IMG/VR virus record: IMGVR_UViG_3300025108_000219
Coordinates: 1-32,726 of that record
Direction: 5' to 3' (one strand)
Source: a virus
DNA: 32,726 bases
Below, in pieces: positions 1,608 to 22,060 of this stretch. The notes beneath the pieces are model-generated. The model saw only the letters and a program-made list of their open reading frames with translations, was not told the DNA's origin and did not search any database. How positions within the stretch are numbered: position 1 is the first letter of the stretch; each line of letters begins with the position of its first letter. A program made the translations under genes and the position numbers.

Positions 1608-3254
1608 TTAGTATCCTGCGCCCACTCGTGTAGTCATCATGCTCCTAGACAGAACGTGATCTGGGCCATCTCCTCCGTTCGCCATTCGCAAATAACGAAT
1701 GATGTCGAAGAAATCCTTTAGTGGTTCATCAGATTTACCTGATGCGTTGTAGTTTATTAAAGAGTCTATTAGGTTTCCGCAATCTTGGTGGACGTAGCAC
1801 CTTGGGCGATTAGCGGAATCAATAGGAACATTCGGGTTATAACTGAACCATTCGTCTATTGCACTAATCCCCATTTCTTCCATTCTTCCGTCTGATGGAA
1901 TAAAGTTCATACCGCAGTCGTCGAACTCGGTGAACAGATCATCGTTGTCAGAGTTTTCCTTAGCGAAGTACCGACTATCACCTATACGCTCGAATACCTT
2001 TATGCCGATGTCCTCTTCTATTTCTTCGAACAAATCTACGTACCCTTGTACGTTGTACCCTATCTTCTTAGATGCTGGGCCGTATCTCCACTTAGGATCT
2101 CCGAACAACGCCCACTCTCCGTAGTAATCCCTATCGGGCCATTCCTTACGGATGTACACATCACCCATATCGTTTACTCCTGCCCATAGTGCTACGTAGT
2201 TCCTAGCTCCTGCTGGGTCAACTACCTGGTAACAGGTGAACTGTTCCTTATTGGAAATGTCTGGGAATGTCATCCCGTACTTGTTCTCCTCCTCGTTCAG
2301 CACGTTTACCTCAGTGTTAAACAAAGGCAGAAGGGATGTCATGCTTCTAACTGGGATGCCGTAAGCACGTACAAGTATCTCGTCCTCTGGTCTTCCCCTG
2401 AGGTCTTTAGCAATACGCTCGTACCCACCGAACGGGTTTTCGTCTGAGTGCAGGTACACCACTGAGGCATCCCTAGATGGGCTGTACTGCTTGATAGGGA
2501 CTTGTTTGTCTAATAGCTCCCCATTTCTAGTCTGAAGGGTTTCTACGTCCTTTAGGTACTCTGCCACAAAGGGAGTGTAACCATCAATAGGAGTAAAGCC
2601 TATACCCATCTTAGAGTCTCTAGTAGCTAATCGAAACCTAAGGGTATTTACTAATGCAGCATCTCCCAGGTACTCATCTAACCAGGCCCCTATGTTAAGA
2701 CCCACTGGATCAGGAAATCCGAACTCGAAGCCCTCAAGGATTGTTTGGTTGTTACTGAACTGGGTGTACGTCTTGAAGTCTACTCTAGTACGGGTATCTG
2801 GAAAGATGAAGCTCTTAGCCGTGAACCCGTTCTGCATACTGTAATTGATGTACCCTTCGATGCTCTTGGTCTTCTTCTTGAATTCCTTAGGCATCATTTC
2901 CCAGATAGCTGCTTGCTGTACCTTAATGGAAGTGTCTTCGTTCTGGGAGAAGCATACTACATGACCGTCTGTGCTTTCCGTTACGGCCTCCATTATAATC
3001 TTAGCAAATCCAGTAGTCTTGCCTGATCTATTGCCACCAAGGGCAAGGCATTCGTTGTACTCTTGCAGTCCTTCCTTTATGCGTTCCCAGCCAGGAAGAT
3101 TAAACCCATGACGAATAGGGTCTTCTATAGATGCCTTTATCCTGCTCTCGTGAGCCTTGTGTAGCTCCTTAAGAAGATTAAGGTCGTTCTCGTACAGCCA
3201 GACAACTTCTTCGTCTGTAGGAGGGAACAGTAAAGGATGCTCAGTAAAGTTAAT
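1608..3254 (-). CDS. terL: terminase large subunit (packaging ATPase and nuclease)
   Basis: This is the motor that pumps DNA through the portal and cuts concatemers. With the start proposed here it is 548 aa. Walker A GGNRSGKT is at about residues 73-80, Walker B-like IGAWLDE ends near residue 194, and the coupling motif is GFTPIDG. The RNase H-like nuclease starts near DPAGARN (about residue 346) and includes FDDCG and the late acidic pair in KDFFDII. The first ATG in frame (2993) lies after Walker A, and no ATG, GTG or TTG occurs upstream in the open frame. The best start is ATT at 3254-3252, five bases after GGAG and overlapping the TAA of the preceding gene. The ATT start is an inference; the coding frame itself is clear. 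Confidence 0.9.
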   Translation of the reverse strand: MNFTEHPLLFPPTDEEVVWLYENDLNLLKELHKAHESRIKASIEDPIRHGFNLPGWERIKEGLQEYNECLALGGNRSGKTTGFAKIIMEAVTESTDGHVVCFSQNEDTSIKVQQAAIWEMMPKEFKKKTKSIEGYINYSMQNGFTAKSFIFPDTRTRVDFKTYTQFSNNQTILEGFEFGFPDPVGLNIGAWLDEYLGDAALVNTLRFRLATRDSKMGIGFTPIDGYTPFVAEYLKDVETLQTRNGELLDKQVPIKQYSPSRDASVVYLHSDENPFGGYERIAKDLRGRPEDEILVRAYGIPVRSMTSLLPLFNTEVNVLNEEENKYGMTFPDISNKEQFTCYQVVDPAGARNYVALWAGVNDMGDVYIRKEWPDRDYYGEWALFGDPKWRYGPASKKIGYNVQGYVDLFEEIEEDIGIKVFERIGDSRYFAKENSDNDDLFTEFDDCGMNFIPSDGRMEEMGISAIDEWFSYNPNVPIDSANRPRCYVHQDCGNLIDSLINYNASGKSDEPLKDFFDIIRYLRMANGGDGPDHVLSRSMMTTRVGAGY

Positions 3255-3468
3255 TCTCGCTCCAATCTATTTGCTCTAACTCTTGTTGGGACATCTTGGC
3301 AACTAATGCCAGTAGCACAGCAAGGTTCTCTTGAGAGTGTTCTTCGTCAATCTTGTTGAACACATCGTACTCAAAGCCATGATCGGTTACGGTAGCAACT
3401 AGAACAGTTTCCCAACCAGGGGATATTGTGTCTAAGGACTTCTGCACTAACTGAGTATTTTTATTCAT
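3250..3468 (-). CDS. hypothetical 72-aa protein upstream of terL
   Basis: A small acidic protein (MNKNTQLVQKSLDTI at its start, LEQIDWSEN at its end) of unknown function. Its stop codon overlaps the proposed ATT start of the large terminase subunit, and its last codons supply the GGAG ribosome-binding site for that gene, so the two look translationally coupled. It begins four bases downstream of the preceding small gene, behind a weak AAGGT. Confidence 0.6.
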   Translation of the reverse strand: MNKNTQLVQKSLDTISPGWETVLVATVTDHGFEYDVFNKIDEEHSQENLAVLLALVAKMSQQELEQIDWSEN

Positions 3469-3471
3469 ACC

Positions 3472-3729
3472 TTAAGAAATTATACGTCTTATATCGTGAC
3501 GGATAGGAGCGCTTTTAAATGGTTTTGTTTCAATGGTGGAGGAAGTGGGATTCGCACCCACGTCTTCAGAAGTATCCTCCTGAATCGAATCTGAATTACC
3601 CCCAATAAAAGCACTTTCGTACTTCTTGATGTCGCTGTAAAAAGGCTCCTTTGGCTTAAATACGTTGTTGTACCCGCTGTGGTACGCATCCCAATTAGAC
3701 ACCCTGTTCCTGTCTCCTTTACCGTTCAT
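3472..3729 (-). CDS. small phage protein of the MNGKGD type, with a tRNA-like element in its 3' half
   Basis: The N-terminus MNGKGDRNRVSNWDAYHSGY matches a small protein type often seen in tailed phages, which starts with M-G/N-GKGD and has paired aromatic residues. It is usually only about 40-50 aa long. Here the frame continues to 85 aa because it reads straight through the tmRNA-like sequence at 3534-3603, which becomes the low-complexity stretch GGNSDSIQEDTSEDVGANPT. The start overlaps the small terminase gene by 11 bases. The first 40 residues look conserved; the tail may simply be RNA-gene sequence translated in passing. Function unknown. Confidence 0.6.
   Translation of the reverse strand: MNGKGDRNRVSNWDAYHSGYNNVFKPKEPFYSDIKKYESAFIGGNSDSIQEDTSEDVGANPTSSTIETKPFKSAPIRHDIRRIIS
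3534..3603 (-). ncRNA. tmRNA-like tRNA domain without a messenger domain (mini-tmRNA candidate)
   Basis: On the minus strand these 70 bases fold in the order of a tmRNA tRNA-like domain. The acceptor 5' strand GGGGGTA pairs with TTCCTCC (G3:U70 wobble, one U:U mismatch at pair 6), followed by discriminator A and encoded CCA. A stemless D-loop ATTCAGATTCGA resembles the tmRNA D-loop (E. coli ATTCTGGATTCGAC). An 8-bp stem TTCAGGAG/CTTCTGAA closed by GATA stands where helix 2 would be, then GAC and a T-arm GTGGG-TGCGAAT-CCCAC. G3:U70 plus A73 is the classical alanine identity set. The T-loop has G where U55 is expected, and the D-loop has AG rather than GG. There is no room for an anticodon arm or a tag reading frame. 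Function is unknown, and an integration-site remnant of ssrA is the main alternative. Confidence 0.6.
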
Positions 3730-5267: not shown

Positions 5268-5465
5268 ATGACAGTAATACCAGCATATGGGCGCGACTAT
5301 AAAAGCGCCAAAGCAGTGAAAGCAGATTGGCAAGCGGGAAAGGATTTTATTATATCGGATATGTCCCATCCTTATGACATGAAGCCAGTAAGCAAAAGAG
5401 ATTTACAGCAAGAGCCTTACGTGTTAATCCGATACGACAAGCTTAGGAAGGTGACGCAAGCATGA
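5268..5465 (+). CDS. conserved small phage early protein, 65 aa
   Basis: The first gene of the rightward arm, with a good AAGGA ribosome-binding site a few bases before ATG. The pattern PAYGRDYKS near the start, KDFIISD in the middle and VLIRYDKLRKV near the end is one I associate with small conserved early proteins of unknown function in many tailed phages. Its stop overlaps the next start by ATGA. Function not known. Confidence 0.7.
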   Translation: MTVIPAYGRDYKSAKAVKADWQAGKDFIISDMSHPYDMKPVSKRDLQQEPYVLIRYDKLRKVTQA

Positions 5466-15640: not shown

Positions 15641-15678
15641 AAGGGCAGTAGGTGTAAAAGCCTGCTGCCCTTTTTTTA
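15641..15678 (+). terminator. intrinsic terminator of the rightward arm
   Basis: A 12-bp stem (15641-15652 with 15661-15672, one G:U pair) with an 8-base loop is followed by a run of seven T (15671-15677). It works only for plus-strand transcripts, since the minus strand has no T-run after the hairpin. The T-run overlaps the end of the convergent minus-strand gene, so the two arms meet here. Confidence 0.85.
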
Positions 15679-18600
15679 ATCTTCTTCGGACTGCTTCATT
15701 GCCCAACTCAAATTCTTACCTATTATTGGTATAAATTGAGTTGTTTTAGATTCTTCAGTTCCTGGGAAATTGAATCCAGCAATGTCTTTACTAGCAGCAT
15801 CTACCAAAGAAACAGCAGGAGGAATCAACATACCAACAGTAGCAGAACCAACGCCCTCCCTTTCTGCAACCATGCCAGTGTATGAGTTCAAGCCAAAAAC
15901 CCTCCAAAGATTTTCAGTTGTGAGGTCTGAAAGATTAGGAAGAGATCCTTCCTTCAGAAAAGCATGAATAAATTCAACAGGAGCATTAGCAATCATAAGA
16001 GATATTAGCATTTGAAAAAGGTTCTGTAACCCCTCCTGAACTTCATCTTCATTTCCAGAAAAAATCTTTTTAAATACATTTCTTCTAGCGTAGTCTAACT
16101 GCTTCATTGTGTAGCTCTTTAAGGCAAATGCCATCCTAATGTTTGGCTTAGTCAGATAAGTGTAAGACATATCTAATTTACTGAGCGGAGCTATTTCTGA
16201 AAGCTTGTAAAATAAAAATTCAGAAACCAGATCAGTCTTACGCCCTGCTCGTATGTCGTTTACAACCTTTTGAGCATTTTCTGGCCCCATAAGATCCGAA
16301 ATTTCATCAAAAACTTTTGCAGATCTTTCGTTAGCAGACTTTCCTAGTTCGCTCTTGACTCTTACGTAAGTGCTGTTGATGAATTTTTCTTTCATCTTTT
16401 CGTCAAGTTTACGAAATCCAGTCAATGTAAAAACAGTATCAATGGCCTTTTGAAGCTTATCGGGAATGCTACCATCGGACGTAAACTCAAACCCGACGGA
16501 CTGACCAGCTAAATTAAGATCTTCTAAAGTAAAAGAAATATCTTTATCCTGCTGGAAAGCAGCTTGTTTATTTTCAAACAAGTTGTAAGCAAAGTCACCA
16601 AGCTGGGTAACTGTACTCATGGGATTGCTCATAAATGCTAAGGTAGTAAAGCTTTTAACACCCCTAGAAAAGTTAGCAAAATCTTTTCTTCCATAAGCAG
16701 CAGAAGATTCAGAAACAAAATTAGCGTTTGATTTGAAAGCCCCCCTTAAAAGTCTAACAATCTCATCGTAACCCCTTTGGTCTAATCTTCCTTCAAGAAG
16801 TTCGTCTCTAAGAACCTTTACCATTCTTCCGCTTCCTAAAGACTTAGATAAGTGGTCAGGAACCCCTCCCTTTTTCTTGAATTTTCTCTCAGCTTTCCCT
16901 ACGGCACTTACAACTTCTTTGCTTTTGCTTAGTATTTCTCTTGCTGACTTCTTTCCTTCTTCAAGGTCTAGTTGTCTGCGAAGATAGGTACGTAAACTTT
17001 GATCCTTTCTGGAGTCTTTGAACTTATTATAGGCGTACAAAGCTTTATCTACATTAGACTCAAACTTTAGCGGTATGCCCTTGACCTCAAAGGTAGACCC
17101 CAATACATAAGGAAGTTCATCGGAAGAAACTTTATCTCTTGTTCTGGTGGTGGCATCTCCTTGATCGACTGGAGTCGGCCCCATGCCCTTAGGAGATTTC
17201 TCATCGTTAATGCTTTGAACTACAATCCTGTCCTGTACTTCTTCAGCTTGAGTTTCTCTCTGCTCAATGTCTTTAAATTCAGACCTATCTACGGAATTAA
17301 AATCTCTAAGAAGATTAGAATCCACAATAGACTTAACCATTCTGTTTACGTAATAAACAGAAGCATTTTGAGGAGTATGGTAAAACTTTACGGCATCATC
17401 AGAAACATTATCAATTACCCTTTTCTTGAGTGGGTTTGTTCCAATGCCCTTATGCTTTGGATTTCCGCTATTTTTAAGATCTTCAATTATTATCCTTTCA
17501 AAGAATTCACCAACCTTATCAATGCTATAATCTTCATCAGACTCTGCCATTTTTTTCAGAGCCTTTTCAACTATATCATCATTTCCTTGAAGACCTAAAT
17601 GCTTTCTGAACCCATCGTAGTCCTTCATGTTCCTGGGCAAAAAATCTTCTATCTCTCCAACTAATACGCCAGAAGTCAATGCCTCTGATCGTAAGTCTTC
17701 AAGGGCTTTTAAGTATTCATCAAATTCTTTTTCAATCTCGTATTTTTCGTGCAAAGGTTTTAACAAGTTGCGATTATTAGTCTTGTGAAAAGCATTGTAA
17801 ATTAACCCATAATCTTCTGGATTACTTTTTTCTATATCATTTATTTTTGAAAGATAAGGAACAATCTTTTTTAAATAATCTGCTTGCTTGTTTTGGTTTT
17901 CAGACTTGTAGCTATTTAATGCTATAAAAGCATTTTTGTTTATTGATCTAATCCTAGAAGTTATTGGCGTAATAATATCCTCAACAACTGGAGTTGATTT
18001 CTTGAAAAAAGAACTATCTTTTATAGAATTAATAAGACCCTTAGTAACTGGAACTACTTTTTTAGAAATACTTTCAGTAATTTTGCTAACGTCTATTCCA
18101 TTTTTCATTAGCCCATCAAGGATCTTTGCCGTAATGGGAGCATTCTTTACCATATCCTTAGCCTTTAAAGTTCCTTTAGCTAAAGATTTACTTACACCAG
18201 ATACGGCTTTTGTCGCTTTGGTAATAGCCTTAAGTGGAACAGCAGCAGATTCTCTGGCTATTCTAGGTGAAGCACCAGCAGCACCAAAAGCACCACCACC
18301 AATAGATCCAAGAGCAAACGCCCTGCCAGTTCCTTCTAAAGTTTCTCTTTCAGGATCGTACCCAAATAAACTGTTAGCAAGAATATTTAAACCAGCTTCA
18401 TCAGCAGCTTCAGTAAAACCCTCGCCAAGTGCGGCCTTGCCTACATCCTTAGTAATTTCCTTAAAGGAATCCTTAGTAAGCTTTCCTTCTTGAGCTAATT
18501 TAAAAAGTTTTTTATTTAGTTCCCTATTCTTAAGAAATACTTTTTGTATTCCCTTCATACCAATTTTTTCAAGGGCATAAGTCTTTATGCCATTAATAGC

Positions 18601-19245
18601 CCCAACAGCTTCAGCAGTATCTCGCTCTTCAGGTGTAGCTGTAGATGGAGTTTTGTCTATGCTTCTGTAGTAATCATCTTTACCAGTCGTATAACCCAAC
18701 GGTATAGTACTACCAGCAAAAACAGCACCTGCACCAACTGGGCCAGCAGCTAAACCTCCAAGACCTGCTGCTGCAAGCTGAGTTCCTATTTGACCAATAG
18801 TGTCTACAACTTGATAAGCGAAATCTTCTTGTACACGTTGAGGAGTAGGAGCAGTTATCTCTTCTCTGGCTTCTCTTCTGGCTTGATTCAAAGAGTCTGA
18901 TATTTTATTTAAATCAGCCTGTCTTTCAAGTTCAGCAATCTTAGCTGCTTCTCTGTACTCAGGTTCAAGTTCGGCAATGACCTGTCTGGCTTGTGGTGTG
19001 GTATAGACTAATGGAGGCCCTTCAGATCCTCTACCTAAAGCAGAAAAATCTACTAAAGCCTCTCCCATGGAATACTTCATGTCACTGACATTAGCACGTT
19101 GACTGCGAAGAGTATCCCCAGGAGTCATGGAGATATCCTCAAAGAGCTGGTAACTTAACTCTTCTAATTGGTCTTGAGTAAGTTCTTTTTCAGAATATAC
19201 CCTTTCAGTTTGACCATCCCTAGATTTGAATACGTAGTCTGGCAT
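15676..19245 (-). CDS. very large internal virion (ejection) protein
   Basis: A 1189-aa protein at the end of the structural arm, where podoviruses place the internal core proteins that are ejected into the cell to form a DNA channel. It has a long charged N-terminus, a Gly/Ala-rich hydrophobic stretch at about residues 148-186 and a second near 318-335, both able to insert into membrane, then long helical basic regions. A late hydrophobic segment (LFQMLISLMIANAPVEFI) is also present. No lysozyme or peptidase motif is visible. The start overlaps the previous stop as TAATG. Assignment is by size, composition and position. Confidence 0.65.
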   Translation of the reverse strand: MPDYVFKSRDGQTERVYSEKELTQDQLEELSYQLFEDISMTPGDTLRSQRANVSDMKYSMGEALVDFSALGRGSEGPPLVYTTPQARQVIAELEPEYREAAKIAELERQADLNKISDSLNQARREAREEITAPTPQRVQEDFAYQVVDTIGQIGTQLAAAGLGGLAAGPVGAGAVFAGSTIPLGYTTGKDDYYRSIDKTPSTATPEERDTAEAVGAINGIKTYALEKIGMKGIQKVFLKNRELNKKLFKLAQEGKLTKDSFKEITKDVGKAALGEGFTEAADEAGLNILANSLFGYDPERETLEGTGRAFALGSIGGGAFGAAGASPRIARESAAVPLKAITKATKAVSGVSKSLAKGTLKAKDMVKNAPITAKILDGLMKNGIDVSKITESISKKVVPVTKGLINSIKDSSFFKKSTPVVEDIITPITSRIRSINKNAFIALNSYKSENQNKQADYLKKIVPYLSKINDIEKSNPEDYGLIYNAFHKTNNRNLLKPLHEKYEIEKEFDEYLKALEDLRSEALTSGVLVGEIEDFLPRNMKDYDGFRKHLGLQGNDDIVEKALKKMAESDEDYSIDKVGEFFERIIIEDLKNSGNPKHKGIGTNPLKKRVIDNVSDDAVKFYHTPQNASVYYVNRMVKSIVDSNLLRDFNSVDRSEFKDIEQRETQAEEVQDRIVVQSINDEKSPKGMGPTPVDQGDATTRTRDKVSSDELPYVLGSTFEVKGIPLKFESNVDKALYAYNKFKDSRKDQSLRTYLRRQLDLEEGKKSAREILSKSKEVVSAVGKAERKFKKKGGVPDHLSKSLGSGRMVKVLRDELLEGRLDQRGYDEIVRLLRGAFKSNANFVSESSAAYGRKDFANFSRGVKSFTTLAFMSNPMSTVTQLGDFAYNLFENKQAAFQQDKDISFTLEDLNLAGQSVGFEFTSDGSIPDKLQKAIDTVFTLTGFRKLDEKMKEKFINSTYVRVKSELGKSANERSAKVFDEISDLMGPENAQKVVNDIRAGRKTDLVSEFLFYKLSEIAPLSKLDMSYTYLTKPNIRMAFALKSYTMKQLDYARRNVFKKIFSGNEDEVQEGLQNLFQMLISLMIANAPVEFIHAFLKEGSLPNLSDLTTENLWRVFGLNSYTGMVAEREGVGSATVGMLIPPAVSLVDAASKDIAGFNFPGTEESKTTQFIPIIGKNLSWAMKQSEED

Positions 19246-20239: not shown

Positions 20240-22060
<1,821 letters not shown>

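Follow-up and report, generated by a model that had tools for sequence, protein, structure and literature searches.

An invariant ATT codon as the probable start of the terminase large subunit gene in a clade of uncultured phages

Results

Organization of the terL locus

The window, that is, the whole stretch of viral DNA analysed (32,726 nucleotides; positions 1 to 32,726 of IMG/VR record IMGVR_UViG_3300025108_000219), carries a terminase large subunit gene, terL, on its minus strand, preceded by a small gene of 72 codons (Table 1). Read in the terL frame, the junction between the two is TAG ATT GGA GCG AGA ATT AAC TTT ACT GAG CAT CCT, and base 3252 is common to the second ATT and to the stop of the 72-aa gene, which ends AAT TAA (3255-3250), so that the overlap reads ATTAA. 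From the TAG at 3269-3267 down to the ATG at 2993 the terL frame is open and holds no ATG, GTG or TTG; the other ATT of this open stretch, at 3266-3264, is not conserved. The ATG at 2993 lies downstream of the Walker A motif, and its methionine, M88, is invariant across all aligned relatives, including those with an upstream ATG of their own. A preliminary description of this DNA had claimed that Walker A is encoded upstream of the first ATG with no canonical start before it, and this is borne out, the coordinates included.

Table 1. Features around the start of terL in the window
Feature	Position	Strand	Basis
terL ATT start codon (probable)	3252..3254	-	sequence; invariant in 36 haplotypes; ATG/GTG at same codon in sister clade
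Terminase large subunit (terL), 548 aa from ATT	1608..3254	-	PHROG 2; Walker A; alignment of 22 relatives
TAA stop of 72-aa gene, 1-base overlap with ATT	3250..3252	-	sequence
GGAG, candidate Shine-Dalgarno, 5-base spacer to ATT	3260..3263	-	sequence; not conserved in clade
In-frame TAG, upstream bound of terL frame	3267..3269	-	sequence
Walker A GGNRSGKT, codons 73-80 from ATT	3015..3038	-	sequence and alignment
First canonical in-frame start, ATG, codon 88 (M88)	2991..2993	-	ORF list and alignment
72-aa gene, inserted upstream of terL, ends AAT TAA	3250..3468	-	ORF; substitution pattern 0.99/0.38/2.89 by codon position

The protein matches the terminase large subunit family PHROG 2 (E=7e-14), and its membership is further indicated by Walker A and by conserved acidic residues in VVDPA, GDSR and KDFFD, which by resemblance are taken as putative nuclease motifs. 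Codons 2-90 have accumulated 0.35, 0.08 and 2.33 changes per site at codon positions 1, 2 and 3, a pattern that also holds for the remainder of the gene, and just after the ATT the residues F3, H6 and P7 are shared without exception by 22 relatives of 68-92% identity, which together indicate that translation has begun by codon 3 at the latest. Before the ATT, substitutions follow the frame of the 72-aa gene, not that of terL. A search at E 0.01 returned no sequence relatives in the PDB, and a search of genome contigs for relatives of terL likewise returned none. An AlphaFold model of the ATT-started protein, built with 22 sequences, was poor (mean pLDDT 54, 29 at the N-terminus) and is uninformative on the start.

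Conservation of the ATT and start sites of relatives

IMG/VR was scanned with the TerL protein and two DNA patterns. Besides many relatives, this yielded 41 contigs other than the window that belong to its clade, from phages that are uncultured and apparently marine; haplotypes were told apart by the combination of the protein and the 30 nt upstream. The ATT is found at the probable start site of terL in 36/36 haplotypes from these contigs, without exception, and wherever the upstream gene is present the two overlap at its TAA. By parsimony the ATT has undergone no change, whilst each of the seven preceding positions has undergone 3 on average. The third base of the ATT is fixed by the stop, and some 15% of the two-fold sites in terL are likewise unchanged, so that conservation within the clade amounts to moderate evidence. 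In three haplotypes (L010, L014 and L017) an in-frame stop stands two codons before the conserved ATT, between it and the site of the ATT at 3266; no codon farther upstream can therefore start terL in these three, leaving, apart from the variable codon that precedes the ATT, only a start at the ATT itself or entry by frameshift.

Among the tree branches listed, the ATT sequences group together and adjoin a sister clade with 77-79% identity to the TerL of the window, and in this sister clade the same codon is ATG in 8 haplotypes and GTG in 4. In the outgroup on the next branch, L074, an ATG lies one codon upstream (ATG ATT GAG TTT); it was scored as ATT by script and was counted as canonical owing to this directly preceding ATG. 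In 40 deeper haplotypes, including phage C75C1, which at 75% identity is the only close annotated record, the ATG lies two codons upstream (M-E/P-I/L-x-F-T). These positions suggest that the start has moved downstream stepwise, the ATT occupying the position which the sister clade uses as its start. Isoleucine or leucine is common at the homologous codon in the outgroups, and the ATT could thus be partly ancestral: an old isoleucine codon that may have turned into a start once the upstream ATG was lost, with the ATG and GTG of the sister clade as improvements acquired afterwards.

The small genes before terL

The region just upstream of terL is a hot spot for the insertion of small genes, as L036, L017, L001 and L037 show. 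In L036 there is none, and the 85-aa gene which elsewhere lies farther upstream joins terL directly, terL having its own ATG in an ATGA overlap (GAATGAAC). The ATT clade carries the 72-aa gene, whose product matched nothing in phages, Pfam or PHROGs; the sister clade has a different, unrelated small gene between the 85-aa gene and terL, and L001 has both. In L017 a deletion has left 13 codons of the 72-aa gene in front of an intact terL, and this remnant still ends on the ATT; L017 is represented by one contig only, which could be defective or wrongly assembled.

The 85-aa ORF itself (3472-3729, minus strand) contains on the same strand a tRNA-like domain of the tmRNA type at 3603-3534, with no tag reading frame (GGGGG...GATTCGA...GTGGGTGCGAATCCCAC TTCCTCC ACCA). 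In the window it scores 36.1 bits against the Rfam tmRNA model (E=4e-13); the gathering score of 47 is not reached here but is exceeded in L009, L040 and L036 (50.0, 47.8 and 47.4 bits). The domain is conserved in the ATT clade and the sister clade: the T arm is retained throughout and the acceptor with few exceptions, and the P2 arm occurs in sequence-unrelated versions with compensatory changes, 5/8 pairs having changed on both sides. It also codes for part of the conserved 85-aa protein (..EDVGANPTSSTIE..). The only phage precedent for a form with the tRNA-like domain alone that was found in the literature is Mycobacterium phage DS6A, and a similar molecule inhibits tmRNA (PMC4131195, PMC11915505); the domain may possibly act as a decoy of host SmpB and trans-translation. 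Some sister-clade contigs have a complete tRNA-Thr (TGT) in frame right behind the domain (L042 2346-2421, L044 2586-2661, L035 2024-2099), through which the protein reads (..NGTVAQLEEHLICNQTVAGSIPV..), and in L003 (~2533-2750) the 85-aa gene has some 65 extra in-frame residues immediately after the domain (..NTDWMKVCFAMDVCEWD..CGLNYCDSPCPGP..). Elsewhere on the minus strand of the window are a 606-aa protein of the virion region containing a long tract of collagen-like repeats (GLQGLQGE...; 20240-22060) and a 1189-aa protein (15676-19245), residues 15-373 of which weakly match a virion RNA polymerase family (PHROG 2206, E=2e-9).

Shine-Dalgarno sequences and stop/start contacts

The preliminary description had placed the ATT five bases after a GGAG and on the TAA of the preceding gene. 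The position and the overlap stand, but the GGAG is not conserved as a guide, being confined to the window, L001, L002 and L125. The duplex with the anti-Shine-Dalgarno before the ATT has an energy of -5.6 kcal/mol in the window, -2.2 to -5.1 in most relatives and +0.5 in L017, against a background median of -1.4; the strong Shine-Dalgarno typical of AUU-start genes is thus lacking, the energies lying near background in most haplotypes. Coupling to the upstream stop is therefore the likelier guide. Stop/start contacts recur in the window, as TAATG at 19245, 25568, 28262, 29647 and 30273 and as ATGA at 5462, 7964, 13341 and 29178, often with a weak or absent Shine-Dalgarno.

Discussion

The start codon of terL

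TerL very probably begins with (f)Met at the AUU at 3254-3252, on which ribosomes coming from the upstream gene would re-initiate at AUUAA. As judged from the sequences, the main weight for this start is carried by the homology of the codon to the ATG and GTG of the sister clade and by there being no other available start. Four other explanations have to be weighed against it. The preliminary description had offered a +1 ribosomal frameshift as the alternative, in which the ribosome would read AAT at the NNT TAA, skip the T and continue with AAC TTT ACT, fusing the 72-aa protein to the terminase. The two frames are indeed adjacent and overlapping, terL has no canonical start and AAT precedes the stop of the small gene in nearly all haplotypes. 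However, that codon is not invariant, TAT TAA replacing AAT TAA in L001, and neither AAU nor UAU would re-pair with AUU after a +1 slip owing to the mismatch in the middle; no stimulator is conserved, the codons leading up to the stop varying freely, and a fused terminase was seen in none of the relatives. Moreover, the 72-aa gene is an insertion which relatives lack (L036), have replaced with an unrelated gene (the sister clade) or have reduced to 13 codons with terL left intact (L017), and a fused protein is therefore not needed. Comparison with related phages thus makes the frameshift unlikely and favours the ATT. It also disposes of a sequencing or assembly error: a single T/G difference would have turned the window's ATTAA into ATGAA, but 41 contigs that were assembled independently carry this ATT too, which excludes an error, and the chance of such an error is negligible.

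A near-cognate start beside the conserved ATT would be highly unlikely. Most haplotypes read ATA ATT, the ATA being one base from ATG, and the window has its second ATT at 3266; however, the codon before the conserved ATT is AGA in the window and GCA, ACA, AAA or AGT in other haplotypes, and the codon at 3266 is ACT in many and is cut off by the in-frame stops of L010, L014 and L017. The only constant codon is the ATT. Equally, a start farther downstream, giving a shorter true protein, is conceivable in that suitable codons exist, namely the ATG at 2993 or a TTG or CTG farther up, which automated gene finders would pick. The chance of this is very slight: the ATG lies past Walker A, TTG occurs at codons 52, 62 and 69 of various relatives, none of them constant and none shared by the window, and from F3 onwards the N-terminal residues are invariant or under amino-acid selection. 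A truncated start of TerL is ruled out by the conserved residues 3-50.

Comparison with known AUU starts

Translation table 11 lists AUU among its start codons. The analogy with infC, to which the preliminary description had appealed as a gene with an ATT start, holds, and the ATT of terL has turned out to be invariant throughout its clade. The infC gene of Escherichia coli closely follows the upstream gene of its operon and has a strong Shine-Dalgarno. As in infC, the AUU of terL stands close behind an upstream gene. In keeping with the class of AUU-start genes, terL has no ATG, GTG or TTG at the start of its conserved protein, and its AUU is homologous to the start of relatives. Unlike infC, for which an autoregulatory loop through IF3 is proven, terL encodes a phage packaging ATPase, its Shine-Dalgarno is weak or absent and its ATT overlaps a stop. 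The AUU start of infC, which encodes IF3, limits yield and is repressed by IF3, and gene finders misannotate such starts (PMC5472188). AUU starts are further given for pcnB of E. coli (Binns and Masters 2002, as cited in PMC13009471) and cvfC1 of Staphylococcus aureus (PMC13009471), and known AUU and AUA starts, including the S. aureus sites, have strong, extended Shine-Dalgarnos (PMC13009471). In pcnB and cvfC1, too, an AUU start codon limits the yield of a gene, but both are chromosomal genes of the host, and the extended Shine-Dalgarnos of the S. aureus sites have no counterpart in most terL haplotypes.

The overlap of start codon and upstream stop, present as ATTAA wherever the upstream gene is present, also invites comparison with re-initiation, which can proceed without a Shine-Dalgarno in dependence on IF2 and IF3, whilst IF3 reduces re-initiation and acts against non-canonical codons (PMC2268962). 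In coupled re-initiation at contacts such as TAATG and ATGA, a process established in bacteria and exemplified by M13 gene V/VII, the downstream start likewise lies on or beside the upstream stop, often with little Shine-Dalgarno, but such contacts have AUG starts and terL has AUU (PMC2268962). Searches of the open-licence literature turned up no phage terminase for which an AUU start is described. AUU starts are nonetheless a known class, to which terL adds the weak Shine-Dalgarno and the stop overlap as particular features, nothing being categorically new.

A possible mode of initiation

We propose that a ribosome which ends the 72-aa gene at UAA would be left on the AUUAA overlap, where it could place initiator tRNA on the AUU and re-initiate, the overlapping stop doing the positioning that is done elsewhere by AUG and a good Shine-Dalgarno. 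The outcome would be a modest, IF3-sensitive synthesis of terminase, as for infC and pcnB, and the ATT may in this way keep terminase under tight control. Against strict coupling, L017 retains the ATT without the full upstream gene, although its 13-codon ORF ends there. A wider suggestion, put forward tentatively and with considerable doubt, is that the clade has fixed AUU for its packaging ATPase with the stop overlap in place of a Shine-Dalgarno, such that the small inserted gene and host IF3 would together set the output and little of the motor would be present until late.

Only a handful of AUU starts are established, those of infC and pcnB among them, and here a whole phage clade would have fixed one in an essential gene. 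Together with its sister lineages it would supply natural ATG, GTG and ATT alleles at one codon, a series for the study of near-cognate initiation and of IF3 dependence at stop/start overlaps. Gene finders limited to ATG, GTG and TTG would begin the terminase of the window past Walker A and so lose its ATP-binding site, and a terL start misplaced in this way would harm the marker-gene trees and family assignments that are built on TerL.
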